A stretch of DNA of 64,000 bases, from the NCBI GenBank assembly GCA_035559815.1, contig DATMAT010000051.1:1-64000 (forward strand), given 5' to 3'. The notes beneath the pieces are model-generated. The model made no database searches, was not told the DNA's origin, and saw only the letters and a program-made list of their open reading frames with translations. The translations under genes and the position numbers were made by a program. Position 1 is the stretch's first letter. Every line of letters begins with the position of its first letter. The stretch comes from Thermodesulfobacteriota bacterium. GTDB lineage: Bacteria; Desulfobacterota_D; UBA1144; Nemesobacterales; CSP1-2. This document shows, in pieces, positions 44,741-59,016 of this stretch.

Positions 44741-45083
44741 GTTGCTCCTTTTGATTTATTAAATAAAGCATGGTTGTTTTCAGTAAGAAATCAAGATTTT
44801 GGTCTAGATTTCTATTTACTATTCAAAAGCTGCTGGTTCAAGATTAATATGGCTTTCTGCACTTCATATTCAGCGGATACGTATCCGCTCATTCCTTCGT
44901 GGAATTTACACTGAGTTTATCGAACGTGCTCAAGACAGGCTCGAAAGATGGAATGTATTTAAACTTAAAAGGTACGTCCTTCGGCAAGCTCGTCAAAAAA
45001 ACAATGAAAAAAACTACTTGACTTAGTTTACTAAAGTTGATAGAGTGTGAAATATAGTAGACGGAATATTGGTCTCGGCGGAT
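44741..45083. other. intergenic with dispersed repeat and cluster promoter
   Basis: A degenerate repeat occupies about 44865-45000 ('GTATCCGCTCATTCCTTCG', 'CTCAAGACAGGCTCG'). A promoter with an operator-like inverted repeat follows immediately before the first gene of the nitrogen cluster. Otherwise nothing is seen. Confidence 0.5.
45018..45046 (+). promoter_or_regulatory. candidate promoter and operator of the Nit1C/oxamate cluster
   Basis: TTGACT (45018-45023) and TAGAGT (45041-45046) are 17 bases apart, about 38 bases before the first start codon. The inverted repeat TTAGT-TT-ACTAA (45023-45034) lies inside the spacer, where a bound repressor would block polymerase. The XRE/cupin protein encoded at 46691 is an obvious candidate regulator. 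Confidence 0.45.
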
Positions 45084-45533
45084 ATGTCCGAATTTATATT
45101 CAAGATTGCAGAAAATGACAAAGAATTGGAAGAATATTTCCGTATTCGTCATGAGGTTTTTGTGAATGAGCAGAAGATATTCCCGGAAACTGACGTAGAT
45201 GAGTACGACAAAGAGGCGATACATATAGTGGCGATCGAGAAATCCACGGGAAAGACGGTAGGAGCGGTGAGGTGTTACAGAAAGGAAGGCGATACCTGGA
45301 TAGGAGGACGGCTAAGCGCCGCTCCTGGATTTCGAAATGGCGTGGTCGGCTCGAATCTGGTGAGATTTGCGGTGAAAACCGTAAAGTCCAGGGATTGTAA
45401 GAAGTTCCTGGCCTATGTACAGCCTCAGAACGTGAGATTCTTCGAAAGGCTTGGATGGAAGACCATTGGAGAACCGATTACCTATCATGGCCTTCCTCAT
45501 CAGTTGATGGAAGCCGATCTGGATTCGGGTTAG
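45084..45533 (+). CDS. GNAT acetyltransferase, MSMEG_0567/Sll0786 family
   Basis: This protein of about 149 residues matches the N-acetyltransferase of the conserved 'nitrogen starvation' cluster (Sll0786 in Synechocystis, N-terminal part of MSMEG_0567). The GNAT core is visible: 'YFRIRHEVFVNEQKIF', 'IVAIEKSTGKTVGAVRCYR' in sense, the CoA-binding 'FRNGVVGSNLVRFAV', and 'FFERLGWKTIGE'. It heads the cluster and is followed by an AIR-synthase-like gene, the same pair as in Nit1C clusters; in mycobacteria these two are fused. Acceptor unknown. ATG 45084 is preferred over GTG/ATG at 45069 by homology and position after GGCGG. Confidence 0.85.
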   Translation: MSEFIFKIAENDKELEEYFRIRHEVFVNEQKIFPETDVDEYDKEAIHIVAIEKSTGKTVGAVRCYRKEGDTWIGGRLSAAPGFRNGVVGSNLVRFAVKTVKSRDCKKFLAYVQPQNVRFFERLGWKTIGEPITYHGLPHQLMEADLDSG

Positions 45534-45543
45534 GAAGATTTTT

Positions 45544-45630
45544 GGCCACGAATGAACACGAATTATCACAAATAAAATAACTTAAGATTGTTTGTTTTTT
45601 ATTCGAGTTCATTTGTGTCAATTCGTGGCT
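45544..45630. repeat. GCCACGAAT inverted repeat, copy 2
   Basis: GGCCACGAATGAACACGAA on the left and TTCATTTGTGTCAATTCGTGG on the right (one base overlong to quote exactly) form an imperfect hairpin between the first two cluster genes. Confidence 0.8.
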
Positions 45631-45648
45631 AAAGATAAAGGAGATTAG

Positions 45649-46647
45649 ATGCGAGAGCTAATTTCGGCCTTACGTTCCTCTCCCCGATTAAGCCAGAAAG
45701 GCCAACTGAGAAATCTATGGCACTTATTCCCTCAAGTTTGCAAAGTTGACGGCAATGACGTGATTCTCGGCGACGACGCCGCCGCCATAAAAACCCCGGA
45801 CGGTTATCTCCTTCTTGCCGCAGAAGGCGTTTATCCACCCCTACTAAAATCCAATCCCTACCTTTCCGGGCGTACGTCGGTACTTACTAACGTAAACGAC
45901 ATTTACGCCATGGGGGGGAGACCTCTAGCCATACTGGATGTTCTTTTTGCTTCAGATTCTGACGAAATTAACGAGGCGCTTCGAGGAATAAATGATAACG
46001 CATCCCGTTACCGGGTTCCGGTGGTGGGAGGACACCTGACCGAAGAGAAGGATTTCTCCTCGCTATCCGTTTTTATATTGGGCAAGGCTAAAAGCTTAAT
46101 CTCCGGTTTTTCGGCCAAAGAGGATGACGATTTAATATTTGCTTTTAGTCCTAATGGGAAGTTTTATTCCGGGTTTAACTTCTGGGATTCTTCGAGCAAC
46201 TTGAGCGGCGAGGAAGCGTTAATGCAGTTGGAACTCCTTCCCCAAATCGCGGAGGAGGGATTAGCCGATGCCGGGAAGGATGTGAGCATGGCCGGGCTTA
46301 TCGGCTCGGTCCTGATGCTTCTTGAATGTTCGGGAAAGGGTGCGGACATCTACATTGATAAAATCCCCGCCCCTTTAGAAGTGCCTTTAAAGGATTGGTT
46401 GCTCACATTTCCCAGTTTCGGATTCATCTTATCGTTGAGACCCCAGAATACCGACAAAGTAGAAGAGAGATTCAAACAATTGGGACTGGCGTTTGAGAGG
46501 ATAGGAAAAGTGACTACCGATCACCAGGTTTTCCTCCTTAGTGATGCCGGTGAGAGGAATCTTTTCTGGGATTTTGGTAGAGAGCCTTTGATTGGATTTG
46601 CCGATAGTCCAACCACTAAGGCACGAAGGTCCAAAGGAGGAATATAA
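45649..46647 (+). CDS. AIR synthase-related protein, Sll0787 family
   Basis: The 332-residue protein shares the PurM/ThiL/HypE-type ATP-binding fold: 'VILGDDAAAIKTPDGYLLLA' in sense, 'VLTNVNDIYAMGGRPLAILD' in sense and 'VPVVGGHLTEE'. It corresponds to the AIR-synthase-like component of the MSMEG_0567/Sll0786-0787 system. Enzymes of this superfamily activate amides or carboxylates with ATP, so a role in amidine, nitrile or ring formation is plausible but unproven. AAAGGAG precedes the ATG. Its true purM counterpart is at 22498. Confidence 0.87.
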   Translation: MRELISALRSSPRLSQKGQLRNLWHLFPQVCKVDGNDVILGDDAAAIKTPDGYLLLAAEGVYPPLLKSNPYLSGRTSVLTNVNDIYAMGGRPLAILDVLFASDSDEINEALRGINDNASRYRVPVVGGHLTEEKDFSSLSVFILGKAKSLISGFSAKEDDDLIFAFSPNGKFYSGFNFWDSSSNLSGEEALMQLELLPQIAEEGLADAGKDVSMAGLIGSVLMLLECSGKGADIYIDKIPAPLEVPLKDWLLTFPSFGFILSLRPQNTDKVEERFKQLGLAFERIGKVTTDHQVFLLSDAGERNLFWDFGREPLIGFADSPTTKARRSKGGI

Positions 46648-46674
46648 GTAGAGACACAAATTTTGTGTCTCTAC
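46648..46674. repeat. palindromic repeat, GTAG...CTAC family, copy 4
   Basis: A perfect 13-base inverted repeat, GTAGAGACACAAA and TTTGTGTCTCTAC, with a one-base centre, directly after the AIR-synthase-like stop codon and 17 bases before the regulator gene. It could be an operator, a processing site or simply a dispersed repeat. Confidence 0.75.
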
Positions 46675-46690
46675 ATTATCAGGGAGATAA

Positions 46691-47278
46691 ATGGACGAAG
46701 AAAAAAATCACGTAGACCGCATCATACTGAAACTGGGAGAAAAGATAAAAACGCTCCGCATGGAAAAAGGCTGGTCCCTGCAAGATTTAGCGGAGAAATC
46801 GGGTATCTCCGCAGCGGGGATTCATAAGATTGAATCAAACGGCATAATCCCGACCATAACCACGATGATGAAGATTGCCGATGCGCTGGGAAAGAAGGTC
46901 AGCTACTTCATAGAAGAGGAAAGGGAAGACAAGGATGTTGTCTTTGTCCCCGCTAGGAGACGGGAGGCTATTTTCACATTCAAGAAGGGACTAGATTTAC
47001 AGGGTATTTCCGCCAAGAAATATGGAGATTTCATGATGACTGCCGCTTACTCGGTGGTCGAAGTAGGTGCATCGAGCGGGAGAAAACCGATGAGCCATCG
47101 CGGAGAGGAACTGGTTTATTGTCTCCAGGGAAAAATGGAATTCAAGGTGAAAGATAAAACTTATATTTTAACTCCAGGCGACAGCCTGCATTTCCGGACG
47201 CATCAGGAGCATAGCTGGAAAAACGTGGGCAATGTTCAAGCAAAGTTATTATGGGTGTTGGCTGTACCGCCGTCGTAA
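46691..47278 (+). CDS. XRE-family regulator with C-terminal cupin domain
   Basis: The 195-residue protein has a helix-turn-helix domain (about 10-70: 'IKTLRMEKGWSLQDLAEKSG', 'SAAGIHKIESNGIIPTITTM', each in sense) and a cupin_2 domain (about 110-190: 'HRGEELVYCLQGKMEFKVKD', 'LTPGDSLHFRTHQEHSWKN', in sense) that likely binds a small ligand. This architecture is typical of local repressors that sense the pathway substrate (such as PuuR). It sits between the Nit1C-type genes and the oxamate carbamoyltransferase genes, so it may control both. GGGAGAT precedes the ATG. Confidence 0.88.
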   Translation: MDEEKNHVDRIILKLGEKIKTLRMEKGWSLQDLAEKSGISAAGIHKIESNGIIPTITTMMKIADALGKKVSYFIEEEREDKDVVFVPARRREAIFTFKKGLDLQGISAKKYGDFMMTAAYSVVEVGASSGRKPMSHRGEELVYCLQGKMEFKVKDKTYILTPGDSLHFRTHQEHSWKNVGNVQAKLLWVLAVPPS

Positions 47279-47399
47279 CCTGTCTTATTTGATGTGCAGT
47301 GTACATCAAATGGAAATAAAAGGTTAGGATGGGGTAAATATAAATTAACCCCCACCTTACTCCCCCGTAAAGGGGGAAGGAGTAAAGGGTATCAAGCCA

Positions 47400-48665
47400 A
47401 TGAAATATCTGGGTGAAAGGATAAACGAGGCCAATAAGATTGCGGTAGAGAGGATTCTTTCCGTCGAACCTGTCTTTATAGACGTTGACACCGCAATCAA
47501 GGTAATTCCGGGTATGACTCCGAATACCGTGCTTCACGCCGGACCGCCGGTTGAGTGGGAGAGGATGTGCGACCCGATGAAAAGAGCGGTAAGAGGCGCT
47601 CTTATATTTGAGGGCTTAGCGTCTGATGACCGGCAGGCTGAGGATTTGATGAGGACAAAAAAGGTAAAGCTTTCTCCTAACCATCACCACGATGCCGTAG
47701 GCCCGATGACCGGAATCATCTCTCCGTCCATGCCGGTGATCGTCACAAAAGATTTGACGTTTGGAAAAACGGCTTACTCCACCTTCAACGAGGGTGGAGG
47801 TAAGGTTCTGTGGTTTGGCGCCGTGGGGAAGGAGACTATTGACCGCCTCAAGTGGATGCGAGATGTATTCGCCCCAGCGATGAAAAAGACAGTGGCTAAA
47901 ACGGGAGGCATTCCTATCTGGAATATCCTCGCCCAAGGAATTCAGATGGGGGACGAGTGTCATAATCGCCACGCCGCCTCTACTAATATTTTTCTTAAAA
48001 ACATTGTCGAACCTCTCATCTCCATAGATTCGCCGACGGAAGTTTTAATTCAGACCTATCGTTTTATCGCCGGAAACAGCCATTTCTTCCTCAATTTAAC
48101 CATGACCGGGTGCAAGCTGGCCATGGATGCCGCTCGCGATATAAAAGACTCTACGGTCGTAACTGCCATGTCTCGAAATGGCACTGACTTCGGGATAAGG
48201 GTAAGCGGCTTGGGAGATACCTGGTTCACGGCTTCGGCCCCATTTCTTTTGGATGCACTTTACAATCCCGGATACGGGCCGGACGACGGCGCCCCGGATA
48301 TCGGAGATAGCTCGATCATAGAAACCATGGGACTGGGCGGGTTTGCCATCGCCGCTGCGCCGGCCATGGCTTCTTTTGCCGGTGGCGGTTTTCAAGAGGC
48401 GGTGGAGATAACGAAACAGATGGACCGGATAACCATTGCCAGAAACCCTAAATTTGCCATACCGGTTTTGGATTTTGAGGGAACCCGTACCGGTATTGAT
48501 ATTCGGAAGGTGGTAGAGACAGGCGTTCTCCCTAGCATAAATAGCGCAGTGGTTCATAAGAGTTCAGGAACGGGACAAATCGGTGCTGGGATTGTTAAGG
48601 CTCCTTATGAATGTTTTACCAAGGCAATTATGGCTTTCGGAGAAAAATACAATTTAGCAGCATAG
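47400..48665 (+). CDS. allG: DUF1116 protein, oxamate carbamoyltransferase subunit AllG (YlbE)
   Basis: The 421-residue protein matches DUF1116/YlbE: 'AGPPVEWERMCDPMKRAVRG' in sense, 'SPNHHHDAVGPMTGIISPSM' in sense, 'MGDECHNRHAASTN', 'SRNGTDFGIRVSGLG' and 'EPLISIDSPTE'. In E. coli YlbE, YlbF and FdrA have been assigned as subunits of the oxamate transcarbamoylase (AllG, AllH, AllF) that ends anaerobic allantoin degradation by transferring the carbamoyl group of oxalurate to phosphate, giving oxamate and carbamoyl phosphate. The fdrA-like gene follows at once. The 'HHH' and 'DECHNRH' motifs look like metal or phosphate ligands. The start lacks a close ribosome binding site. Confidence 0.9.
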   Translation: MKYLGERINEANKIAVERILSVEPVFIDVDTAIKVIPGMTPNTVLHAGPPVEWERMCDPMKRAVRGALIFEGLASDDRQAEDLMRTKKVKLSPNHHHDAVGPMTGIISPSMPVIVTKDLTFGKTAYSTFNEGGGKVLWFGAVGKETIDRLKWMRDVFAPAMKKTVAKTGGIPIWNILAQGIQMGDECHNRHAASTNIFLKNIVEPLISIDSPTEVLIQTYRFIAGNSHFFLNLTMTGCKLAMDAARDIKDSTVVTAMSRNGTDFGIRVSGLGDTWFTASAPFLLDALYNPGYGPDDGAPDIGDSSIIETMGLGGFAIAAAPAMASFAGGGFQEAVEITKQMDRITIARNPKFAIPVLDFEGTRTGIDIRKVVETGVLPSINSAVVHKSSGTGQIGAGIVKAPYECFTKAIMAFGEKYNLAA

Positions 48666-48673
48666 TTTTAATT

Positions 48674-48757
48674 GGCCACGAATGAACACAAATGCTCACG
48701 AATTATTTATCTTCTAAATGATTTTTCATTAGTGTTAATCCGTGTTAATTCGTGGCT
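48674..48757. repeat. GCCACGAAT inverted repeat, copy 3
   Basis: Left arm GGCCACGAATGAACACAAAT, right arm ATCCGTGTTAATTCGTGGCT. It fills the allG-allF gap and reads in frame with allF from an ATG inside it, so it can mislead start-codon calls. Confidence 0.85.
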
Positions 48758-48779
48758 AAATCTAAAATGGAATAAGAAA

Positions 48780-50342
48780 TTGGCAATAGTCAGCACGGTC
48801 AAGAAAAACTACTACCAGGATTCGATGAAGCTTATGCAGATAAGCCAGAAGCTCGGTGCCATACCCGGTGTAATAAAGGCCTCCGCCATCATGGCGACGG
48901 AAGCTAACCTGAGGATGCTTATGGACGCTGGTCTAATCAAGGAACCCCCGAACTCGGCTAACGCAAACGATATGATTGTGGCGATTGAGGCCGATTCCGA
49001 AAGCAGTGCGAAAGAGGCGATGGAGAAGCTGGATTCCCTTCTCGCTCCGGCTATGGCCGGCATCGCCGCAAAAAGAGAATACAAAAACTTTGACTCCGCT
49101 TTGAGCGCCCTGCCCCAGGCAAATCTGGCGATCATCTCCCTTCCCGGTCAATACGCAAAGCTGGAAGTGACAAAAGCAATCGAAAGAGGGCTTCATACCT
49201 TCCTCTTCAGCGATAACCTGACTGTGGAAGAGGAAATCGAACTAAAGGAAAGAGCCAGGAAGCGCGGCCTCATGGTGATGGGACCGGGGTGTGGCACGGC
49301 AATAATAAACGGAGCCGGGCTTGGGTTTGCCAATGTGGTGAGGAGAGGCCCGGTGGGAGTAATTGCAGCCGCGGGAACCGGTATGCAGGAAGTTACGAGC
49401 CTGGTGCATAACTGGGGCTCGGGCATCTCTCACGCAATCGGCTTGGGCGGAAGAGATCTATCGGAGAAGGTCGGCGGAATCATGGCAATAGAAGCTATAA
49501 AGATGCTCCAGAGTGATGAAAGCACCGAGGTTCTTCTTCTTGTGTCCAAGCCGCCGTCCGAGAGGATAGCTAAAAAGGTGCTGGATGTAGTTGGGCAAGG
49601 CGAGAAACGCGCAGTAGTTTGTTTTATTGGAGAAAAAACTAAAAGAGAGGCAGGTTCAAAAATTCTTTATGCTTCCACCCTTGAACAGGCGGCACTGGAA
49701 GCGTCGAAATTAGTGAAAGGAAACGGAAAGGGGCTTGAAATTGCTAAAGATGGAAGTTTTAAGAAGACGGCAGAAAAGCTGATGAAATCTTTAGATGCAA
49801 AACAACGCTATCTTCGCGGCCTGTTCTCCGGTGGCACTTTGTGCTATGAAGCTCAACAGGTTCTTACTCCCATACTGGGAAGGATTTACTCGAATGCCCC
49901 TCTCCATAAGGAAAACAAGCTTGAGGATTCCAATCGTAGTAAGAAACACACCTGCGTTGATTTGGGAGAAGAGGAATTTACCCAAGGGCGTCCCCATCCG
50001 ATGATAGATGCTACACAGAGAAATGAGCGAATATTAAAAGAAGCATCTGACCCAAACACTGCGGTAATACTTTTGGACGTGGTGCTGGGATACGTGGCCA
50101 GCTCCGACCCGGCAGGTGACCTTCTCCCGGCTATTAAAGAGGCTAAAAAGATAGCAAGGAACAAAGGACGCTCGATAGCGTTTGTAGCCCATGTCTGCGG
50201 AACCGAAGAAGACCCACAGAATTTGAAGTCACAGGAGGAAAAACTGAAAAGTGCTGGAGTGTTGGTCTTGCCGACTAATGCTCTTGCCTCCAGGTTTGCC
50301 GGTTGGATTGTAACCAGGGGAAAGAAGGGGTTAGAGGTTTAA
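48780..50342 (+). CDS. allF: FdrA-like protein, oxamate carbamoyltransferase subunit AllF
   Basis: The protein (about 520 residues from TTG 48780) is an acyl-CoA synthetase (NDP-forming)-like FdrA: an N-terminal segment 'VKKNYYQDSMKLMQISQKLG', a CoA-binding Rossmann domain with 'MGPGCGTAIINGAGLGFAN', 'VGVIAAAGTGMQEVTSLVHN' and 'IGLGGRDLSEKVGG', and a succinyl-CoA-ligase-like second half with 'GLFSGGTLCYEAQ' and 'VILLDVVLGYVASSDPAGDL'. It should assemble with AllG and AllH. The upstream in-frame ATG at 48672 would translate the repeat element (36 extra residues) and is rejected. A TTG start with only a weak upstream GGAATAAGAA suggests modest translation. Confidence 0.9.
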   Translation: MAIVSTVKKNYYQDSMKLMQISQKLGAIPGVIKASAIMATEANLRMLMDAGLIKEPPNSANANDMIVAIEADSESSAKEAMEKLDSLLAPAMAGIAAKREYKNFDSALSALPQANLAIISLPGQYAKLEVTKAIERGLHTFLFSDNLTVEEEIELKERARKRGLMVMGPGCGTAIINGAGLGFANVVRRGPVGVIAAAGTGMQEVTSLVHNWGSGISHAIGLGGRDLSEKVGGIMAIEAIKMLQSDESTEVLLLVSKPPSERIAKKVLDVVGQGEKRAVVCFIGEKTKREAGSKILYASTLEQAALEASKLVKGNGKGLEIAKDGSFKKTAEKLMKSLDAKQRYLRGLFSGGTLCYEAQQVLTPILGRIYSNAPLHKENKLEDSNRSKKHTCVDLGEEEFTQGRPHPMIDATQRNERILKEASDPNTAVILLDVVLGYVASSDPAGDLLPAIKEAKKIARNKGRSIAFVAHVCGTEEDPQNLKSQEEKLKSAGVLVLPTNALASRFAGWIVTRGKKGLEV

Positions 50343-50344
50343 AA

Positions 50345-50373
50345 GTAGGGGCGACCCGGCCGGTCGCCCCTAC
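50345..50373. repeat. palindromic repeat, GTAG...CTAC family, copy 5
   Basis: GTAGGGGCGACC and GGTCGCCCCTAC, a perfect 12-base inverted repeat around CGGCC, begin two bases after the allF stop codon. Nearly the same as the element after carB (29991). Confidence 0.8.
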
Positions 50374-50389
50374 AAAAGGGAGAAAATAG

Positions 50390-51328
50390 ATGAAGGTGGC
50401 GGTAGTGGCGTTTGGCGGAAATGCTCTCATGGATTTTAGCGGCAAGAGTAGCTATGCCGAGCAGATGATGAAAGCCGACAAGATGTGCAGGGAAATCCTC
50501 AGCCTATTCAATCGGGGTTATACGGTCGTTATCACACACGGAAACGGCCCGCAAGTCGGAAATTTGCTCATGCAGCAGGAGTCCCTGGCTGACAATATTC
50601 CACCGATGCCTCTGGATGTTTGTGATGCTATGACCCAGGGGCAAATAGGCTATATGATCGAGCAGAGCCTGAGGAACATGTTCACCAAGAACGGAATAAA
50701 AAAATCGGTTGTCTCTCTGGTGACTCAGGTAGTGGTATCGGAGGATGATCCCGCTTTTAAAAATCCTACCAAGTTTATCGGACCTTTTTTTAATAAGGAT
50801 GAGATAGAAGAACTGGAGAGGGGAAGAGGGTGGCAGGTAAGGGAGGACTCCGGAAGGGGCTGGAGACGGGTTGTGCCCTCCCCAAAACCGGTGGATATAG
50901 TGGAGAAAGACGAAATCAGGGAGATGATAATGAAAAATTTTGTGGTGATATCATGCGGCGGCGGCGGAATCCCGGTACTTCGGGATAAGAAGGGTGTGTT
51001 GAAAGGGGTATCCGCTGTGATCGATAAGGATTTTGCTGCGGAGAGGCTGGCCAGCTTAATTGATGCCGAGATACTCCTTTTGATCACATCGGTCAGCCAA
51101 GTTTCTATTTTTTACGGAACACCTAAACAAAAGACACTAGGTAGAATCACGCTCGATGAAGCCAAGCGATATTGGGAGGAAGGACATTTCCCTCCGGGCA
51201 GCATGGGGCCTAAAATAGAGGCGGCTATAAGGTTTCTCGATTCAGGCGGGAAGAAAACAATCATAACTTCGCTTGAGGGTATCGAAGCGGCAATAAAAGG
51301 AGAGGGAGGAACGGAGATTGTGGCGTGA
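50390..51328 (+). CDS. arcC: carbamate kinase
   Basis: The 312-residue amino-acid-kinase-fold protein has 'VVAFGGNALMDF' (phosphate-binding glycines), 'THGNGPQVGNLLMQQE', 'ISCGGGGIPVL', 'VIDKDFAAERLASLIDAEIL' in sense and 'HFPPGSMGPKIEAAIRFL', all carbamate kinase signatures. It converts carbamoyl phosphate and ADP to ATP, carbamate (then CO2 and NH3). Next to AllF/AllG it corresponds to the kinase of the allantoin fermentation operon (YbcF/AllK). This pairing gives a complete phosphorolysis-to-ATP route from a carbamoylated substrate. GGGAG lies upstream of the ATG. Confidence 0.95.
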   Translation: MKVAVVAFGGNALMDFSGKSSYAEQMMKADKMCREILSLFNRGYTVVITHGNGPQVGNLLMQQESLADNIPPMPLDVCDAMTQGQIGYMIEQSLRNMFTKNGIKKSVVSLVTQVVVSEDDPAFKNPTKFIGPFFNKDEIEELERGRGWQVREDSGRGWRRVVPSPKPVDIVEKDEIREMIMKNFVVISCGGGGIPVLRDKKGVLKGVSAVIDKDFAAERLASLIDAEILLLITSVSQVSIFYGTPKQKTLGRITLDEAKRYWEEGHFPPGSMGPKIEAAIRFLDSGGKKTIITSLEGIEAAIKGEGGTEIVA

Positions 51329-51760
51329 TGAAAACATATGGACGGGGGAGGGTATGGGCGTATGGGAGTGTGGGCGATGAACGGATAAAATGAAAAAATG
51401 TCTATTTTTAAAACAATGTGCCTAGAAATTGGGCAGGTGTTGAATGAAGCTTCAGGGAAGAGGGTTGTTAAAGTGAAACCGAGGTTTGGATTTTTCAGGC
51501 GCACGGCAAGAATTCTCGGCCTTTGGTGCACTAGTCTTTATACCGATGGGCGGGGTTTTCTAAACCTGTGTAAGAAGTCAGGTTGATTTAACACGGTATC
51601 GGCAAAGTGGTATGTAGTTTGCCGATACACATTTTAAGAAAGGGAGGTGATTAAAAGGAGAGAAATGGCAAGTACATGATTGCCCTTTCGTTGCTTTTAT
51701 ACTAAGATAAGAGCGACAGGGGTTACAGCAGTAAAATACGGCAGTTGGGAGGTGATACCA
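51329..51760. other. intergenic within the cluster, with hairpin
   Basis: This is the largest gap in the cluster. It contains a weak 62-codon frame (51398-51586) that I do not trust, a perfect hairpin at 51596-51628 and, at 51640-51680, an AGGGAGGTGATTAAAAGGAG segment that looks like a strong ribosome binding site without a matching long gene (a four-codon frame starts after it). The amidohydrolase's own ribosome binding site follows. Confidence 0.45.
51596..51628 (+). promoter_or_regulatory. 11-bp perfect hairpin upstream of the amidohydrolase
   Basis: GTATCGGCAAA (51596-51606) and TTTGCCGATAC (51618-51628) flank an 11-base loop. It divides the cluster into a carbamoyltransferase/kinase half and a radical-SAM half and may be a terminator, attenuator or operator. 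There is no U-tract. Confidence 0.45.
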
Positions 51761-52606
51761 GTGAAAGTAAACAGAAAAGTGTTTGATGCTCATTCCCATG
51801 TTGGCGAACTGGCCGCATACAAGTTCTATGACCTTAAGGAACCAGTAAAACCTACTGTAATCGAATACCCAACTTCGAAAGAATACGTAAAACACATGGA
51901 TGAATACGGGATAGACCGGGCAATGGTTATCTCCAATTACGGCGTGCCCGATTCCGCGCAACCTTTTACTCTCAATCCTCTGGTGATTGACAGTGTTCAT
52001 AAGGCGGATCGTCTTGTCGGCGCCATATGGGTTTCCGGTATGGCCAAGGACAAGGAGCGAACCGAGGAGGCTTTAAAGCATGTGAAAGAAAAGGGCATTG
52101 TGGCTTTAAAAGCCACCTGCCTTCTCGGCGGGACCTACAAACCGAGCGAATGGGATGAGACGGTTAGGGGAATATGGGAAGGCATCGTCAAAGCCGCTGA
52201 GGAGAATAACCTTGTCCTGCATATTCATACCAGTCCCGGCGGGGGCTCGGATGTGGGAAATGCCTTTGAGTTTGTGAAGGAATATGGAAAGCGAATCAAG
52301 GTCCATATAGTTCACATGGGTGGCGGGGTAAGCGGCCACATAAGGCTCGTCCCAAAATTCATAGAGCTTGTCCAGGATGGCTATCAGGTTTACACGGATA
52401 CCACTTGGGCTATCGGCTTCGGCTCGCGCTGGTTGCTATATGAGGTAGAACGCACCGGTATTGGCACGGATAATGTGCTTTTTGCTTCCGACACCCCCTG
52501 GGGGGATTTCCCCTCGGAGTACTGGAAGGTCGAGGGAGCGAAGATTTCGGAAGAATTAAAAAACAAGATCTTCTGGGAAAACGCCCAGAAGCTTTATTCT
52601 AGGTAA
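51761..52606 (+). CDS. amidohydrolase-family (ACMSD-like) metal-dependent TIM-barrel hydrolase
   Basis: The protein of about 281 residues begins 'VKVNRKVFDAHSHVGEL', where D-x-H-x-H is the first metal-binding motif of amidohydrolase_2 enzymes; further ligands are in 'LVLHIHTSPGGGSD', 'VHIVHMGGG' and 'VLFASDTPWGDFPSEYW' in sense (final Asp). It may hydrolyse an amide or ring, or decarboxylate. In Nit1C clusters the position of the amide-bond chemistry is taken by a nitrilase; that gene is absent here and this enzyme may replace its step (inference). GTG 51761 is chosen because GGGAGGTG lies seven bases upstream. Confidence 0.85.
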   Translation: MKVNRKVFDAHSHVGELAAYKFYDLKEPVKPTVIEYPTSKEYVKHMDEYGIDRAMVISNYGVPDSAQPFTLNPLVIDSVHKADRLVGAIWVSGMAKDKERTEEALKHVKEKGIVALKATCLLGGTYKPSEWDETVRGIWEGIVKAAEENNLVLHIHTSPGGGSDVGNAFEFVKEYGKRIKVHIVHMGGGVSGHIRLVPKFIELVQDGYQVYTDTTWAIGFGSRWLLYEVERTGIGTDNVLFASDTPWGDFPSEYWKVEGAKISEELKNKIFWENAQKLYSR

Positions 52607-52730: not shown

Positions 52731-52763
52731 ATTTTGAGAAAACAAAAAAGGAGGTAATGCAAA

Positions 52764-53255
52764 ATGGCTGTAGAGCGAGTAAAAGGAGAGAAACCCCAAA
52801 AGGGAAAGGCGATTGTTAATTATGAGGAGAAGGTATTCCCGGATTACAAAGCAAACCCGGGAGAGAAGGCATTATTTCTCGTCCATACGGTTCCGTATGA
52901 GGGATCGGTAGCCGGCATCAATATGCTTACGGCTATAAGGTGTAAGAGAAAAGGTTACGATGTGAGCGTCGTTTTCTACGGCCCGGCATCCGCTATCCCG
53001 GTTTACCGGGGCTGGCCCAACATCGGAGACGACGGTTATGGTGCGGGTATTCAGCTCTATCCCAATCTGGTTCAAAGGATGATCAGTGAGGGAATAAAGG
53101 TTTATGCCTGCCGTTTCTCTGCCGCCTGTCTTATCGGCGTGAGGGAAGAGGATATGCTCGAGGGTGTTAGACCAATACATCCGACCGACATCCTGGACAT
53201 AACCATCGAACATGCCAGAGCGGGCGCGATGATTTTCAGCACCTGGACTGTTTAG
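52764..53255 (+). CDS. MSMEG_0572/Sll0783-family nitrogen starvation protein
   Basis: The 163-residue protein matches the Sll0783/MSMEG_0572 family: 'EKVFPDYKANPGEKALFLVH' in sense, 'PYEGSVAGINMLTAIRCKRK' in sense, 'VVFYGPASAIPV', 'GIKVYACRFSAACLIG' and the C-terminal 'DILDITIEHARAGAMIFSTW' in sense ending TWTV. It has a DsrE-like alpha/beta fold with a conserved cysteine in 'YACRF'. In cyanobacteria the gene is induced by nitrogen deprivation. No enzymatic activity is established for it that I know of. AAAGGAGG precedes the ATG. Confidence 0.92.
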   Translation: MAVERVKGEKPQKGKAIVNYEEKVFPDYKANPGEKALFLVHTVPYEGSVAGINMLTAIRCKRKGYDVSVVFYGPASAIPVYRGWPNIGDDGYGAGIQLYPNLVQRMISEGIKVYACRFSAACLIGVREEDMLEGVRPIHPTDILDITIEHARAGAMIFSTWTV

Positions 53256-53287
53256 TTATACTGATTGTGGATATAAAGGCTTTTTCT

Positions 53288-53354
53288 GGCCACAGAGGAC
53301 ACAGAGAAAAGTAAGAACTTTACTATTCTCTTCATCCTCTGTGCACTCTGTGGC
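53288..53354. repeat. GCCACAGAG inverted repeat, variant of the family, copy 5
   Basis: Left GGCCACAGAGGACACAGAG and right CTCTGTGCACTCTGTGGCT. The layout is the same as in the GCCACGAAT family but the motif is CACAGAG on both arms, so the change is compensated. Confidence 0.75.
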
Positions 53355-53408
53355 TGATAATGTATCTCACGATCTGCAATCGTCAATCTGCAACTGAAGG
53401 AGGGGACT

Positions 53409-54539
53409 ATGGATTCGAAGACCCTGAAAGTGGAGCTACAGAGTTATGGTCTTAAGATTCCGGATACCAGGGACATAAGGAGAGGGGGAGCGGGACCAAC
53501 CGGAGGGATTCATCTAAAAATCCTTCCTGACTGTGAGGCCAATATCCCGGTAGTAGGCGATTTTCTTGATACTTCTCCATATCACCTCGACCAGATAAAC
53601 GGTGAATATTGGATATTCCGGGACGAGGTCGCCCTGGCCCAGGTTGAACTGATGGGTGCGGCCAGGTTCTACCAGCACAAAACATCGAGTGGAATACCGA
53701 TGCAGCGTATGGGACTCCTTCATTGCCCAACCACTTTTGCGACGACGCTCCTTCAGACCTGCGATTTCTGGCAAGACTGGAGGAGATGCCAGTTTTGCGG
53801 AATCGAGCTTACACTCCAGGATAGAAGCACGGTCGGGTTTAAGAATGCTAAGAGTCTGGTCGAGACTATATTGCTAGCCAAGGAGCTGGACGGAATCTCC
53901 AATATAGTCTTTACCTCGGGAGTGGCTAAAGATGAAGAGAAGGCTCTGGCCAAATATGCGGAAATATGCTCGGAGGTGAAGAGGGCAACCGGGCTTCCCA
54001 TTCAGCTTCAAATAATTCCGCCGGAAGACCTGTCCTGGCTAAGGCGTTTGAAGGATTCAGGTGTGGACGCTTTGGGAGTCCACATAGAAACATTTGACCC
54101 CGATGTCTTCGAGAAGGTAACGCCGGGGAAGGCGAAGATCGGGTTCAACCGTTATGTGGAAACATGGAAGGAGGCGGTTAGCGTCTTTGGCCGATGGCAG
54201 GTGAGCACTTATATTCTAGTCGGATTGGGAGAGAGACTGGAGACAGTTACACAGGGTGTCGCTCTGTGCGCTGAAATTGGGGTCTATCCGTTCATAGTTC
54301 CGTTTCGTCCGATTGCCGGCACGCCGATGGAGAATGTAAAGCCTCCCAAGCCGGAGGTGATGGAGTATGTTTACACCGAAGCAGCGAAGATACTTTCTAA
54401 ATACGATGGACGCTCGAAGAGCAGCAAGGCCGGATGTGTAAGCTGCGGTGAATGCTCGGCGCTTCCCGATTTCGAAAAGGCTTTGAACCCGGGCAACGTG
54501 AGGTTTAAGAAATTCGCAAGGACTATAAATGTGAGTTGA
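53409..54539 (+). CDS. radical SAM protein, MSMEG_0568 family
   Basis: The 376-residue protein is the radical-SAM member of the Nit1C-type cluster. The cluster-binding cysteines are unusual: C118-x8-C127-x2-C130 ('TCDFWQDWRRCQFC') instead of CX3CX2C. The biotin-synthase-like barrel follows ('VETILLAKELDGISNIVFTS' in sense, 'GVHIETFDPDVFEKVTPGK', 'STYILVGLGE', 'IVPFRPIAGTPME'). The C-terminus has another cysteine set, C343/C346/C349 ('GCVSCGEC'), which could bind an auxiliary Fe-S cluster. The reaction is unknown. AAGGAGG precedes the ATG. Confidence 0.92.
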   Translation: MDSKTLKVELQSYGLKIPDTRDIRRGGAGPTGGIHLKILPDCEANIPVVGDFLDTSPYHLDQINGEYWIFRDEVALAQVELMGAARFYQHKTSSGIPMQRMGLLHCPTTFATTLLQTCDFWQDWRRCQFCGIELTLQDRSTVGFKNAKSLVETILLAKELDGISNIVFTSGVAKDEEKALAKYAEICSEVKRATGLPIQLQIIPPEDLSWLRRLKDSGVDALGVHIETFDPDVFEKVTPGKAKIGFNRYVETWKEAVSVFGRWQVSTYILVGLGERLETVTQGVALCAEIGVYPFIVPFRPIAGTPMENVKPPKPEVMEYVYTEAAKILSKYDGRSKSSKAGCVSCGECSALPDFEKALNPGNVRFKKFARTINVS

Positions 54540-54809
54540 ATTATTTGAATATAGGTTAATTTGCTTCTTTCCGTATATTATCGGAAGGCGTGTGAATTAT
54601 AGGAAAGAAAAGGTGCTATGTAGGATTAATAACCCATTCATCCTGAGCCTGTCGAAGGATGGAAAGTATTCTCTCTAGCTTATGAAGGCGCCCTTCGACG
54701 AGCTCAGGACGAGCGGAGATATATATATCCGCAATATCCACTTTACTAAATGAGTTTACTCTTGGGTGGGAGGGAGTATAAAAGTAATTTCTAATGTGAG
54801 TGAGGAGAA

Positions 54810-56168
54810 ATGAACATGGCACAAAACAATCTTCGCATAATCGTAATAGGTGGCGGGGCTGGCGGAATTTCTGCCGCCTCGACGGCAAAGAACGTCAACC
54901 CGGACGCCTCCGTTACTCTATTTACCGAATATGAGGACGTAGCTTACAGCCCTTGCGGCATTCCTTTCGTTCACGGTAGGGAGATTCCCAGCTTTGAGAG
55001 CCTCTTTCTTCAAACCTCGGAGCATTACGCTCAGATAGGAATCGATTTGAGGCTGCAAACCACGGTTACCGGGATCGACATTAATAAACGCACGGTAAGC
55101 GTCGGCTCTCAAGAGTTCCCATGGGACCGGCTGGTGATAGCCACCGGGTTTGAATATGAGAAACCGGAAATCCCTGGTGTTGATTTAGAGGGGATTCATT
55201 ATGTTAAAAACATCCGTCGAGCGATGGAGTTTGATAAGATTCTCGACCAGATTAAGAAGGTAGTTGTGGTAGCGGCTACGCCATTGGGGATCGAAATGGC
55301 CGGAAATCTGGCCCATAGAGGGCTTGAAACCCATCTTGTGGACGAAGGCCCCTGGCTTATGTCTAAGGTCGCCGACCCGGACATCATGGAGCCGGTGCAG
55401 AAATCTTTAGAAGAGCTTGGGGTGAAGATCCATTTCGGGACCAAGGTTCTTGAATTCAGGGGTTCAGACGGAAGGGTAAAATCCGTTGTTACCACTGATG
55501 GTGATATAGATTGCGATGTGGTTGTGGTTGCCACGAATAAAAAGCCGAATAACCGGCTTTCACGGGAGGCGGGGTTGAAGATCGGCTCGACCGGTGGGGT
55601 GGTGGTGGATGACCACATGCGGACGTCGGTGAAGGATGTTTACGCCGTCGGAGACTGTGCTGAGGTTATCCACGGTGTTACCGACCTTCCTATTCAGGGT
55701 CTTTCCGGAAGTCACGCTTATTCACAGGGAAGGGTGGCCGGAGCGAATGCGGCTGGAGAGGAGCGTGCCTACGACCCGGTTTACGTGCCCTGGGGAATGG
55801 TTGGTGGAAAGGTGCAGATGGGTGGGGTCTCTATGGGGGAGACGTTGCATAAGGCTCTGGGTATACCTCATTTTGTCGCAGTAGCCGTAGGAATTTCAAG
55901 AGCTAGATACTACCCGGGTGTGAGCAGGATACGGGTGAAGCTGATTGCCGACCCTAAAACACTTCGGGTGATGGGCGCTCAGATGTCCGGTGGAGAGGGG
56001 ATCAAAGAAAGGGCTGACTTTCTGGCATTTACCATAAAGCGTGGGGCTACGCTACACGACTACGCCTGGATGGAGAATGTGTATTCCCCTCCGATTGGAG
56101 CGCTGATGGAGCCTATTGCCCTGGCCGCCCAGGCCGGGCTGGCGGAGTTGAAGAAGGGAAACAAGTAA
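54810..56168 (+). CDS. FAD-dependent pyridine nucleotide-disulfide oxidoreductase (CoA-disulfide reductase/NADH oxidase type)
   Basis: The 452-residue flavoprotein has the FAD loop 'IVIGGGAGGISAAS', a single redox-active cysteine C49 in 'YSPCGIPF' (as in CoA-disulfide reductases and NADH oxidases), the second FAD motif 'VKDVYAVGDCAEV', and a C-terminal dimerisation domain with 'YSPPIGALMEPIALAAQ'. The NAD(P)-binding loop, usually GGGxIGxE, reads 'VVAATPLGIEMAGN', so two of the glycines are lost and nicotinamide binding may be altered. In Nit1C clusters a different flavoprotein (MSMEG_0569) occupies this place. GAGGAG precedes the ATG. Confidence 0.87.
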   Translation: MNMAQNNLRIIVIGGGAGGISAASTAKNVNPDASVTLFTEYEDVAYSPCGIPFVHGREIPSFESLFLQTSEHYAQIGIDLRLQTTVTGIDINKRTVSVGSQEFPWDRLVIATGFEYEKPEIPGVDLEGIHYVKNIRRAMEFDKILDQIKKVVVVAATPLGIEMAGNLAHRGLETHLVDEGPWLMSKVADPDIMEPVQKSLEELGVKIHFGTKVLEFRGSDGRVKSVVTTDGDIDCDVVVVATNKKPNNRLSREAGLKIGSTGGVVVDDHMRTSVKDVYAVGDCAEVIHGVTDLPIQGLSGSHAYSQGRVAGANAAGEERAYDPVYVPWGMVGGKVQMGGVSMGETLHKALGIPHFVAVAVGISRARYYPGVSRIRVKLIADPKTLRVMGAQMSGGEGIKERADFLAFTIKRGATLHDYAWMENVYSPPIGALMEPIALAAQAGLAELKKGNK

Positions 56169-56174
56169 AGGTTT

Positions 56175-56317
56175 AACCACGAATTTAGAGAGATTAACTC
56201 GACTGAAAACAAACAAGATACAAGATGCAGATTCAGAGTTATGTAAAAAATTCTCATGAATTATTCATCATCATTAATGCATCATTTTATTAGTGTGAAT
56301 TCGTGCTCATTTGTGGC
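56175..56317. repeat. GCCACGAAT inverted repeat, copy 6 (expanded)
   Basis: Left end AACCACGAATTTAGAGAGATT, right end GTGTGAATTCGTGCTCATTTG then TGGCT; the interior is longer (about 100 bases) and AT-rich. Confidence 0.65.
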
Positions 56318-56340
56318 TAAATTATTACCAAGGAACTAAA

Positions 56341-56601
56341 ATGATAGAACAAAAATCATTCGGTGAATGGCTTAGAAAAAATGCTGAAAAATACTTGCTC
56401 GAGGCCGCCACCGACGAGATGGCGGCCCGTTACCCCGAATTCTGCGCGAAGCCTTATCGTGAAAGCGGCCTGGGTCCCTTTTTCTGGAGAAACATCTTTG
56501 TCCCGATTTATTCTAAGATTCCCTGGGGTATCCGCCGGAGGTTAATTCTCCTTAGCTCGTACCCTTCGGGCCAGCGCCCGCATTGGAAAAGATGGGGCTG
56601 A
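56341..56601 (+). CDS. small conserved-looking basic protein of the cluster, unknown
   Basis: The 86-residue protein (MIEQKSFGEWLRKNAEKYLL at the start) has an acidic helical N-terminus, one cysteine ('EFCAKPY'), an aromatic segment 'GPFFWRNIFVPIYSKIPWGI' that could be a membrane-surface helix, and a basic end 'SGQRPHWKRWG'. AAGGAAC precedes the ATG. It does not resemble the small MSMEG_0570 protein of other Nit1C clusters. It is placed between the flavoprotein and AllH, so is likely part of the operon; I do not recognise it. Confidence 0.65.
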   Translation: MIEQKSFGEWLRKNAEKYLLEAATDEMAARYPEFCAKPYRESGLGPFFWRNIFVPIYSKIPWGIRRRLILLSSYPSGQRPHWKRWG

Positions 56602-56621
56602 TTCGTTTTGAAACTATTTCT

Positions 56622-56692
56622 AACCACAACCGCACGACGACACCAAGAAATGTTTCCAGAGTTTTACTTTGTGCCGTTGTGTGGTAGTGGTT
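56622..56692. repeat. inverted repeat, divergent member of the GCCACGAAT family, copy 7
   Basis: Left AACCACAACCGCACGACGACA and right TGTGCCGTTGTGTGGTAGTGG. The element ends seven bases before the likely allH start. Confidence 0.6.
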
Positions 56693-56698
56693 ATTAAC

Positions 56699-57685
56699 GT
56701 GGATGATTTGATAATAGAAGCTGAATTCGTCGGCCATAGAGCGGCAAAAGCACTGCGCGGTTCTAGAAAGACAGCCAGGGTGCATAGCGTCTTTGACCGG
56801 GGATTCTATATCCAAATCGGCAGAAATCTGATTAGCGTGATCAAAAATGAAGACTTTATCAGTCCTACCTCGATAGTCATCGGTGATCCCTATGAGAGAG
56901 GGTTCAGGTCAATAGGTATAGAAGAAGGAATGAAAATCGAGATTAATGGGGATAGTCTGGTTTTTGAGGACAAAGCGCTCACCATCAGATTCGGGAAATC
57001 TGCCAATTCGTTTTCCCCACCGGTTCCCAAGCGGAGTGCCCTTTTGGACTTAATCAAGATCAGTCTCAATCTTAGAATCTTGAGAGACGTGATATACACC
57101 TGTCCAAGCCGGGAAGGGCTTGTTCCTCTCTTGGAGAATGTGGAGTTATATGGACCAGCACAAGTTTTTCTTAGACCTCAAATGCCAATCCTTTCGGAAA
57201 AAGCGAGGCCCAATATCGAGACGCTCATGTGGGGACTATTTAGCGGTGATCACAATATGATATTAGCCAGAGCCTCGGAAATACTTGGGCTTGGACCAGG
57301 GCTCACTCCTTCTGGTGACGATTTTCTTGCCGGATTAATACTCAGTTTGGTAATAGGGGGAAAGGCACTTCGGAAAAATGGCACAAAAGAGTTGATTTTC
57401 TACCAGAAGCTGTCTAGAGACATCTGTAAATTGGCCAAGGAAAAGACTACGATTTACAGCCAAATCTTTCTAAATCAAGCACGAAGGGGTGAAGGCCCCA
57501 AAGCTGTGGTTGAGTTGATTCATGCTCTTCTGACAAAAGACCCGAACCAGGTCGCCTCCTCCGCCAAGACGGTCATAGGCATGGGGGAAACATCCGGGGC
57601 CGATATTGCCATCGGCATCTACTACGGCATCCGCTTTTTGATCTCGAGGCTGGAGAGGCTAGAAGACATGTTGGAACTTGAATAA
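56699..57685 (+). CDS. allH: DUF2877 protein, oxamate carbamoyltransferase subunit AllH (YlbF)
   Basis: The protein of about 328 residues carries the DUF2877 signature 'LGLGPGLTPSGDDFLAGLIL' (in sense) that identifies YlbF/AllH, plus 'GRVHSVF'-like 'ARVHSVFDRGFYIQ' near the start and a C-terminal 'VIGMGETSGADIAIGIYYGI' in sense. With AllF and AllG, encoded 6-9 kb upstream on the same strand, it should complete the oxamate carbamoyltransferase. Its separation from the other two by the Nit1C-type genes means the two modules are interleaved rather than merely adjacent. The start is uncertain: TTG 56669 and several GTG codons precede or follow; GTG 56699 clears the repeat. Confidence 0.88.
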   Translation: MDDLIIEAEFVGHRAAKALRGSRKTARVHSVFDRGFYIQIGRNLISVIKNEDFISPTSIVIGDPYERGFRSIGIEEGMKIEINGDSLVFEDKALTIRFGKSANSFSPPVPKRSALLDLIKISLNLRILRDVIYTCPSREGLVPLLENVELYGPAQVFLRPQMPILSEKARPNIETLMWGLFSGDHNMILARASEILGLGPGLTPSGDDFLAGLILSLVIGGKALRKNGTKELIFYQKLSRDICKLAKEKTTIYSQIFLNQARRGEGPKAVVELIHALLTKDPNQVASSAKTVIGMGETSGADIAIGIYYGIRFLISRLERLEDMLELE

Positions 57686-57837
57686 ATCGTTGATAATTAA
57701 GACATAGAAGGAATTACTGTTCATGATTCGACTAGCTCACCATGAATGGCTTAGTTCTAATGCCGTTCACCCTGGAGCCTATCGAAGGGTGTGTTTTTTG
57801 CGTAGTTTTAATCAAAATCAAATTAACGACATCTTCC

Positions 57838-59016
57838 ATGAAATCTCTTAAAATCGCCCTACTCACCTACTCAACCAAGCCACGAGGCGGAGTGGTGCAT
57901 ACTTTATCTTTAGCAGAGGAATTAGCCCATCTTGGACACCGGGTTCATATATATGCCCTTAGCGGTGGAGAGGGTTTTTTCAGGCCGGTAGGCGTTCCTT
58001 ATACCCTAATTCCCTGCGAGAACTTGCCCGATGAGGGTATGGATGAAAAGGTGAAGAGATACATCAATACCTACTCCACATACCTGGCTTATACAAATCT
58101 AGATTGCGACATCTACCATGCTGAGGATTGCATTTCTGCAAATGCGCTTCTGGTGTTGCGTAATCTTGGTTTGATTAAATCCTTCATAAGAACCGTTCAC
58201 CACGTAGATGATTTCACGTCACCATCGCTGATCGAGTGTCAATTGAGAAGCATCATCGAGCCTGACCACATAATCGTTGTCAGTAAATTCTGGGAAAATG
58301 AGCTTCGCTCTCGATTTTCCCTGAACCCCACCGTCATTAACAACGGCGTAGATGTGGAGAGGTTTAAAATTACCGGCGTCGAGGGATTCAAGGATAAAGC
58401 TAAAGAAGACTTCTTGGTAAGCGGGTGTAGGGTGATTCTCAGCGTAGGCGGAATCGAGCCGCGAAAGAACACGCTAACCACACTACGGGCATTTGGAATT
58501 GCCAAATCATATTTTAAAGAAAAGGGTGAGCGTTTAGTCTGGCTAATCGGAGGCGGAGAAACGCTGTTCGATTACCGGGTGTATCGTGATGAATTCTTTT
58601 CTGAGGTGAAAAGGTCTGGATGTAGGTTAGATGAAGACATAATACTTCTTGGCAATGTTCCCGATGATTCGATGACTAAACTCTATGGAGCGGCGGATGT
58701 TTTGGTCTTTCCCTCGGTGAAAGAAGGCTGGGGGCTCGTCGTCTTTGAAGCCATGGCCTCCGGGCTTCCAGTGATTGCCTCTATTATCGAACCTCTCACC
58801 GAGTATCTAGGAGACGAAGAAAATTCTTTACTGGTTTCACCGATGGACTATGAAGCATTGGCTCACGGGATCATCAGGGCCATGGAGAATCCGGAGCTCC
58901 GGGACAGACTGATAAAAAACGGAAGAAAAACAGCCGAGTCTTATAGCTGGAGGACTACGGCGTTAAAGCATGAGGAGTTTTATGAAGGGATCTTAGAAAG
59001 TGTTGATATAAAATAA
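57838..59016 (+). CDS. family 1/4-like glycosyltransferase, MSMEG_0565 family
   Basis: The protein of about 392 residues starts 'MKSLKIALLTYSTKPRGGVV' and has 'VHTLSLAEELAHLGHRVHIY' in sense, matching MSMEG_0565-family GT-B glycosyltransferases of the same conserved neighbourhood. The C-terminal donor domain has 'VGGIEPRKNTLTTLRAF' and the E-x7-E motif 'EGWGLVVFEAMASGLPVIA'. It may glycosylate the pathway product. ATG 57838 begins the conserved sequence; an upstream ATG at 57742 adds 32 non-conserved residues. It is the last gene of the cluster. Confidence 0.9.
   Translation: MKSLKIALLTYSTKPRGGVVHTLSLAEELAHLGHRVHIYALSGGEGFFRPVGVPYTLIPCENLPDEGMDEKVKRYINTYSTYLAYTNLDCDIYHAEDCISANALLVLRNLGLIKSFIRTVHHVDDFTSPSLIECQLRSIIEPDHIIVVSKFWENELRSRFSLNPTVINNGVDVERFKITGVEGFKDKAKEDFLVSGCRVILSVGGIEPRKNTLTTLRAFGIAKSYFKEKGERLVWLIGGGETLFDYRVYRDEFFSEVKRSGCRLDEDIILLGNVPDDSMTKLYGAADVLVFPSVKEGWGLVVFEAMASGLPVIASIIEPLTEYLGDEENSLLVSPMDYEALAHGIIRAMENPELRDRLIKNGRKTAESYSWRTTALKHEEFYEGILESVDIK

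Follow-up and report, generated by a model that had tools for sequence, protein, structure and literature searches.

Nit1C genes interleaved with an AllFGH and carbamate kinase module in three unrelated bacterial lineages suggest one unrecognised nitrogen pathway

The stretch of DNA analysed here, a window of 64,000 nt from contig DATMAT010000051.1 of a Thermodesulfobacteriota bacterium (assembly GCA_035559815.1), carries 13 genes between 45.07 and 59.02 kb, all on the + strand (Table 1). A profile search placed four Nit1C families and a Nit1C-type glycosyltransferase (GT) over their curated cut-offs at this locus, Nit1C being the nitBCDEFGH cluster (Podar 2005, PMC1199592; Pseudomonas, PMC11049912). 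Between the Nit1C genes lie those for AllG, AllF, AllH, carbamate kinase, an amidohydrolase (AmidoH), a flavoprotein resembling CoA-disulfide reductase, and a small protein, with five genes standing between AllH and carbamate kinase. A previous, sequence-only reading had listed 13 same-strand genes in this order; all are present on the + strand, and the family profiles agree with its assignments. Several of the automatic gene starts are too long, the true starts probably being 51761 for the amidohydrolase and approximately 45084 for the GNAT protein, 48780 for AllF, 56341 for the small basic protein, and 57838 for GT. Promoter and terminator scans of the cluster returned matches at chance level, and intergenic gaps of 150–350 bp between some of the genes leave a single transcript unproven, a point against the explanation that we favor below.

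Table 1. Genes of the cluster within the window, with the profile or PDB matches on which each assignment rests.
Product	Position	Strand	Evidence
GNAT acetyltransferase, MSMEG_0567/Sll0786 family (NitE-like)	45069..45533	+	TIGR04045 153.7 bits, cut-off 68.5
AIR-synthase-like (AIRS-like) protein, sll0787 family (NitF-like)	45649..46647	+	TIGR04049 327.5 bits, cut-off 321.3
XRE-cupin transcriptional regulator	46691..47278	+	HTH_3 + Cupin_2
AllG (DUF1116), oxamate carbamoyltransferase subunit	47400..48665	+	PF06545 282 bits, E=4e-84; PDB 3clq E=2e-114
AllF (FdrA), oxamate carbamoyltransferase subunit	48672..50342	+	NF004760 497.7 bits, cut-off 433; PDB 3dmy (E. coli FdrA) E=9e-86
Carbamate kinase	50390..51328	+	TIGR00746 equivalog 406.9 bits, cut-off 358
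Cluster-specific amidohydrolase (Amidohydro_2)	51680..52606	+	PF04909
MSMEG_0572/Sll0783 family protein (NitB-like, DsrE-like)	52764..53255	+	TIGR04044 181 bits, cut-off 109.9
Radical SAM protein, MSMEG_0568 family (NitD-like)	53409..54539	+	TIGR04043 331 bits, cut-off 303.7
CoA-disulfide/CoA-persulfide-reductase-like flavoprotein	54810..56168	+	TIGR03385 277 bits, below cut-off 578.8
Small basic protein, 96 aa	56311..56601	+	no Pfam/NCBIfam match
AllH (DUF2877), oxamate carbamoyltransferase subunit	56669..57685	+	PF11392 E=2e-23
Glycosyltransferase (GT), MSMEG_0565 family	57742..59016	+	TIGR04047 389.9 bits, cut-off 259.9

These 13 genes account for the first two thirds of the cluster, which thus extends beyond what the sequence-only reading had delimited. 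In most relatives, GT is followed by genes for OsmC, an AllF-N/AllG-N fusion, a 188-aa protein, a methyltransferase, an aminotransferase, and a LysA-like enzyme; in this genome, the six lie beyond the window on the same contig, at 65.7–71.0 kb. We dropped the idea that they are a separate unit because they come right after GT in the relatives and because the 188-aa gene is found in 19 of the 21 phylum genomes with the radical SAM gene. A CysK-like gene also belongs to the continuation, and the genome carries a second copy of part of this downstream block that is free of Nit1C genes. An AlphaFold model of the 188-aa protein (single sequence, pLDDT 55) was too weak for use, and the fold search made with it gave matches only at E≥0.017, mostly ferritin-like.

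Alignments of the cluster proteins reveal several strictly conserved residues of catalytic type. Cys116 of the Sll0783 protein is invariant in 26 sequences, Cys49 is invariant in the flavoprotein, and the radical SAM protein combines a CX8CX2C motif with a C-terminal CX2CX2C motif. Invariant cysteines thus occur in Sll0783, OsmC, and the flavoprotein, and they point to the possible involvement of a thiol or persulfide carrier in the chemistry. The flavoprotein has relatives in PDB (6pfz, 3kd9, and 8a56). At 277 bits against a cut-off of about 579 (TIGR03385), it is not a CoADR equivalog, its invariant Cys49 notwithstanding. MSMEG_0569 is absent from its best 25 families, and MSMEG_0570 found no match among the cluster proteins. 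In the amidohydrolase, His38, His40, Lys144, His181, His209, and Asp271 are invariant; an AlphaFold model of this protein (four-row alignment, pLDDT 48) was also too weak for use.

We then compared 58 genomes of the same (Dadabacteria-like) phylum. The radical SAM gene occurs in 21 of them, and 20 of these 21 also encode AllG (contingency table 20/1/4/33, Fisher p = 1e-10), the lone exception being cut by a contig end. AllG is present in all 11 genera that have the radical SAM gene, the two genes lie 4.3–6.1 kb apart in each of the 15 cases in which they share a contig, and the order of the cluster genes is fixed within the phylum. From this co-occurrence and recurrence, we conclude that the arrangement is not accidental. 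Chance juxtaposition in a single genome, for which we found no supporting point, is refuted by the 21 phylum genomes and by the two other lineages described below, and we give it practically no weight. It had been proposed that the arrangement would be accidental if the genome also held an ordinary Nit1C locus and a complete all operon. The whole genome contains one TIGR04043 match and one PF06545 match, both at this locus; it lacks another Nit1C locus, and none of its proteins scores over the allantoinase cut-off.

Outside the phylum, the combination was found in two lineages, a small number that counts against our preferred explanation. The first is a genome from another phylum (G164), in which the order is Sll0783-AmidoH-rSAM-GNAT-OsmC-AllG-CK-AllF-GlcD-GlcF-AllH-AIRS (rSAM, radical SAM; CK, carbamate kinase); the genes are accompanied by a 2-hydroxyacid-oxidase-like pair and an SsuA-type importer and adjoin a divergent sigma-54-type regulator. 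The second is Methylocystis iwaonis, whose plasmids join the flavoprotein, small protein, Sll0783, AllG, AllF, XRE-cupin, and OsmC genes to a canonical nitrilase Nit1C. Here, the XRE-cupin relative is 46% identical and the flavoprotein relative is 54% identical, the next plasmid match of the latter being 32%. The small protein is conserved in the phylum and has plasmid relatives only in the two Methylocystis clusters; plasmid scans with it and with the flavoprotein returned only the two M. iwaonis records as hybrids. Within the stretch examined in Methylocystis, there is no carbamate kinase, AllH, or AmidoH, which also weighs against the explanation that we prefer. A search of the domain sample with Sll0783 yielded only G164 and, in G319, a Nit1C fragment without AllG. 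Three further candidates with a radical SAM protein over the TIGR04043 cut-off (G376, G244, and G099) were rejected, no other cluster gene lying nearby. In the AllF tree, Methylocystis groups with the phylum (support 99/98); its radical SAM protein nests inside canonical Nit1C, and that of the phylum forms its own clade, 33–40% identical to other Nit1C forms. These trees indicate that the two modules were joined independently at least twice. The recurrence that had been proposed as a check is seen throughout the phylum and in two unrelated lineages.

The cluster had also been described as lacking a nitrilase. None of the 58 phylum genomes, including the one studied here, has a protein over the cut-off of the Nit1C nitrilase family TIGR04048, the best score being 244 bits against 502.6, at places other than the cluster. 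In G164, the amidohydrolase occupies exactly the nitrilase position. The description thus holds for the phylum and for G164, which have AmidoH instead, but not as a definition of the set, as Methylocystis keeps the canonical nitrilase. We propose that AmidoH stands in for the nitrilase. Its family was found in 22 of 387 genomes, all of them cluster-bearing, with no plasmid match. These observations bear on a reading in which ordinary cyanide or nitrile assimilation merely sits next to an independent oxalurate-scavenging operon, the two having only the neighborhood or a regulator in common. Nit1C has indeed been linked to cyanide assimilation in Pseudomonas (PMC11049912), and AllFGHK without upstream purine genes is seen in nitrifiers (PMC12625717). 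However, the missing nitrilase, the confinement of AmidoH to cluster-bearing genomes, the contig break behind the only genome with radical SAM but not AllG, and the interleaving in three different gene orders make this reading very unlikely.

The explanation that we consider on balance probable is that the locus encodes a single conserved pathway, its gene cluster being a variant of Nit1C that has merged with the AllFGH/carbamate kinase module. That the interleaved genes serve one pathway, as the sequence-only reading had thought likely, is well supported by their recurrence and by the single Nit1C locus; the substrate and direction we infer. The Nit1C core (Sll0783, radical SAM, GNAT, AIRS-like ATP enzyme, and flavoprotein) would build or process an intermediate containing nitrogen, whose final form is a ureide or an N-carbamoyl compound, and the amidohydrolase, or the nitrilase in Methylocystis, would open or unmask this ureido compound. 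AllFGH would then cleave the ureide with phosphate, giving carbamoyl phosphate together with an amide or amine, and carbamate kinase would draw ATP from the carbamoyl phosphate, leaving carbamate to decay to ammonia and CO2. It is plausible that Nit1C makes the ureido compound that AllFGH phosphorolyses. In support, AllFG/carbamate kinase modules on other plasmids adjoin ring-opening amidohydrolases.

AllFGH converts oxalurate to carbamoyl phosphate plus oxamate and back again (PMC11326118), and because this reaction is reversible, direction is not readable from sequence. A serious rival to the catabolic reading, possible if less than probable, is biosynthesis. Carbamate kinase and AllFGH would then run towards synthesis and supply a carbamoyl group while the radical SAM, AIRS-like, GNAT, glycosyltransferase, methyltransferase, and PLP enzymes build a small molecule. 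The GT, methyltransferase, and PLP-enzyme genes look biosynthetic, the cluster continuing with aminotransferase, CysK-like, and LysA-like genes; AllFGH was assayed in vitro as carbamoyl phosphate plus oxamate to oxalurate (PMC11326118), and Methylocystis has no local carbamate kinase. On the other hand, the sole characterised physiological role of AllFGHK is catabolic, hydrolases and permeases accompany the known AllFG/carbamate kinase modules, and the G164 genes stand beside the oxidase-like pair, sigma-54-type regulator, and SsuA-type importer.

What most Nit1C genes do has been an open question since 2005, as a reaction is understood only for the nitrilase. The combination described here, seen in three unrelated bacterial lineages and suggestive of a single unrecognised nitrogen pathway, offers a new handle on their function: tying the core to the biochemically defined AllFGH and its carbamoyl phosphate narrows the range of its possible products, and the presence of both modules in a named methanotroph isolate, M. 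iwaonis, makes the question directly testable. A bolder and rather doubtful reading is that Nit1C is at root not a nitrile hydrolysis system. Its core would instead make a carrier-bound or cyclic ureide, perhaps an adduct resembling hydantoin and derived from cyanide, ammonia, and CO2. The only difference between lineages would be the opening step, performed either by a nitrilase or, with AllFGH/carbamate kinase acting next, by a dedicated amidohydrolase. If true, cyanide-type or other nitrogen would reach carbamoyl phosphate by a new route that yields ATP.

Among known systems, the E. coli allFGHK operon (PMC11326118) likewise encodes AllF, AllG, AllH, and carbamate kinase together, but here Nit1C genes split the all genes, a separate AllF-N/AllG-N fusion subunit lies downstream, and none of the 58 phylum genomes has an allantoinase over the TIGR03178 cut-off. 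The FdrA-DUF1116-carbamate kinase modules of Aminobacter and Citrobacter plasmids and yahEFGIJ similarly place ureide-phosphorolysis-type genes beside an amidohydrolase; they list no Nit1C genes, and the ring-opening amidohydrolases of Aminobacter and Citrobacter are annotated as a different family from AmidoH. Nitrifier allFGHK with biuret/triuret hydrolases (PMC12625717) also sets AllFGHK beside other ureide enzymes, whereas the accessible part of that account describes no Nit1C radical SAM, GNAT, or AIRS genes. Unlike Nit1C itself, the cluster is without nitrilase, MSMEG_0570, and the MSMEG_0569 flavoprotein and has the amidohydrolase, AllFGH, carbamate kinase, CoADR-like flavoprotein, and new small protein. 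Its Sll0783, radical SAM, GNAT, AIRS-like, and GT proteins nevertheless fall in the same curated families, and the G164 version retains both the Sll0783-X-rSAM-GNAT order and the divergent sigma-54-type regulator of canonical Nit1C.

Curated profile searches bore out the thirteen genes named in the sequence-only reading, in the stated order on one strand of an 80.6-kb contig (C51), whose initial 64 kb make up the window, within a 3.97-Mb assembly that is 98% complete. The Nit1C-family genes (GNAT, AIRS-like, Sll0783, radical SAM [rSAM], and MSMEG_0565 glycosyltransferase [GT]) all score over their cut-offs, as do AllF and carbamate kinase (CK); for AllG and AllH the Pfam matches are clear. Although akin to CoA-disulfide/persulfide reductases, the flavoprotein scores far under the cut-off for the equivalog. 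No family was matched by the 96-aa protein in these searches. The intergenic gaps span 6–351 bases, so an operon is likely; promoter and terminator scans of it gave no matches above chance level.

That reading also held the interleaved Nit1C and AllFGH modules to be likely one pathway, to be checked by co-occurrence in further genomes. The combination does recur, in 20 of the 21 rSAM-bearing genomes of the window's (Dadabacteria-like) phylum and in two lineages outside it. Among 58 phylum genomes, TIGR04043, counted as rSAM when over cut-off, occurs in 21 and AllG in 24 (Fisher p = 1e-10, relatedness uncorrected); at the genus level, 11 of 11 rSAM genera have AllG, again uncorrected. The sole genome with rSAM and no AllG has its contig cut at AllF, and in three of the four with AllG and no rSAM the contig ends near the cluster. 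On the 15 contigs holding both, they lie 4.3 to 6.1 kb apart. Gene order in the phylum is invariable save for the cluster amidohydrolase (AmidoH), which lies within the cluster in the window's family but in other families stands just 5′ of GNAT in divergent orientation. Among named genomes, rSAM similarity singles out Candidatus Dadabacteria and "Deltaproteobacteria/Desulfobacterota" MAGs as relatives; their rSAMs are 82 to 89% identical and their gene order is unchanged. A family member, G006, has a second rSAM copy (L070, contig C707; 74% identical) with no other cluster genes nearby. The TIGR04043 cut-off by itself is no proof of a Nit1C cluster, since three rSAMs exceeding it in genomes of other families (L060, L061, and L062) form their own clade with no further Nit1C gene near; that of L060 adjoins a two-component regulator pair.

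Directly 3′ of GT, most relatives carry genes for OsmC, a 151-aa protein in which the N-terminal part of FdrA/AllF is fused to the N-terminal extension seen in long AllG proteins, a 188-aa protein of no known family, a Methyltransf_20 protein, a class I aminotransferase, frequently also a CysK-like enzyme, and finally a LysA-like decarboxylase. In the window's genome, ≈6.6 kb with a MazF-like gene and others separate GT from these extension genes. The 188-aa gene occurs in 19 of the 21 rSAM genomes versus 3 of the remaining 37. A piece similar to the second copy on contig C23 is found in G032 (L118).

Coordinates of features in and around the compared clusters
Feature	Location	Remarks
AgcS-type sodium/amino-acid symporter	window 42833-44188	immediately 5′ of cluster; kept in window's family (G003, G004, G005, G006)
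MazF/PemK-like gene	window 59041-59370, minus strand	directly 3′ of GT; also in G005, followed there by part of another GT copy
OsmC, AllF-N/AllG-N fusion, 188-aa protein, methyltransferase, aminotransferase, LysA-like genes	C51 65.7-71.0 kb (L108 7656-13015), beyond window	continue cluster
Second copy of methyltransferase, aminotransferase, CysK, 188-aa, LysA genes	C23 of window's genome (L113 2257-10873)	also another CoADR-like flavoprotein and MetE-like protein; no Nit1C or All genes
Divergent amino-acid-kinase protein	G004 (L032 5186-6247)	extra gene between small protein and AllH; 35% identical to CK
Putative HyuA/HyuB-like (hydantoinase/oxoprolinase-type) genes, branched-chain-type ABC transporter	near G164 cluster (L082 8904-12452)	from reading of ORFs
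Cytochrome bd-type oxidase genes	L087 7263-9841; L090 17918-18480	adjoin Nit1C in Methylocystis and Acetobacter plasmids

The cluster had been described as lacking a nitrilase, and TIGR04048 indeed exceeds its cut-off in none of the 58 phylum genomes (best 244 bits versus 502.6, elsewhere in the genome). Nor does any of them carry an allantoinase over cut-off; the single far-below-cut-off match per genome is presumably dihydroorotase. An alignment query for AmidoH against 387 genomes from 317 genera, mostly bacteria outside the phylum (E ≤ 1e-40), found it in 21 phylum genomes, each with the cluster in whole or in part, and outside the phylum in G164 alone; this restriction makes AmidoH most likely a dedicated enzyme. 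Invariant residues are consistent with active enzymes: His38, His40, Lys144, His181, His209, and Asp271 in AmidoH, the radical-SAM cysteines and a C-terminal CX2CX2C in rSAM, Cys116 in the DsrE-like Sll0783, Cys49 in the flavoprotein, and a cysteine pair in OsmC. Such cysteine conservation may reflect thiol or persulfide chemistry.

Outside the phylum, G164, a near-complete genome from a different small phylum, has the order Sll0783-AmidoH-rSAM-GNAT-OsmC-AllG-CK-AllF-GlcD-GlcF-AllH-AIRS, with an SsuA-type ABC importer downstream and, upstream, a divergent GAF/AAA/HTH regulator that reads as sigma-54 type. Its AmidoH occupies the slot held by nitrilase in the canonical Nit1C of Rhizobium and Acetobacter plasmids. 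Its relative G391 retains Sll0783-AmidoH-rSAM on a short contig. Two Methylocystis iwaonis plasmids encode the flavoprotein (54% identical to the window's; next plasmid match, 32%), small protein, Sll0783, AllG, AllF (annotated "oxidoreductase"), XRE-cupin, GT, and OsmC, along with AIRS, GNAT, rSAM, and a canonical Nit6803 nitrilase; AmidoH, AllH, and CK were not found within the stretch examined. The Methylocystis bd-type oxidase operon includes DUF2474, as in cyanide-insensitive oxidases.

In the rSAM tree, Methylocystis falls within the canonical Nit1C proteins that accompany a nitrilase (74% identity to Rhizobium), the canonical group has G164 as its sister (98/92), and the phylum forms a third clade. 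In the AllF tree, by contrast, Methylocystis groups with the phylum (99/98) and G164 with ordinary AllF/YahF types. These differing groupings indicate separate histories for the two modules and no fewer than two joining events, with long branches leaving fine placement uncertain.

The AllF-AllG-AllH transcarbamylase reversibly converts oxalurate and phosphate to oxamate and carbamoyl phosphate, and in Escherichia coli allF, allG, and allH are each required (PMC11326118). On other plasmids, related FdrA-DUF1116-carbamate kinase modules adjoin ring-opening amidohydrolases and a nucleobase permease, which supports viewing such modules as probable ureide-phosphorolysis units with interchangeable upstream hydrolases. 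We propose that the Nit1C core would make or process a compound ending as a ureide, that AmidoH (or nitrilase) would open it, and that AllFGH and CK would recover ATP, ammonia, and CO2. Within the G164 cluster, the pair resembling GlcDF could take the role of ureidoglycolate dehydrogenase and form an oxalurate-like substrate. The glycosyltransferase, methyltransferase, and PLP enzymes would fit a biosynthetic direction for the cluster, which we regard as a less likely but serious alternative.

Our literature search, which covered papers outside subscription, found no publication describing Nit1C together with allFGH. Because it lacks the nitrilase, MSMEG_0570, and MSMEG_0569 features of Nit1C proper, the cluster is not classed as such, and the label of allantoin operon does not suit it either; we class it as a variant derived from Nit1C that has merged with a ureide module.
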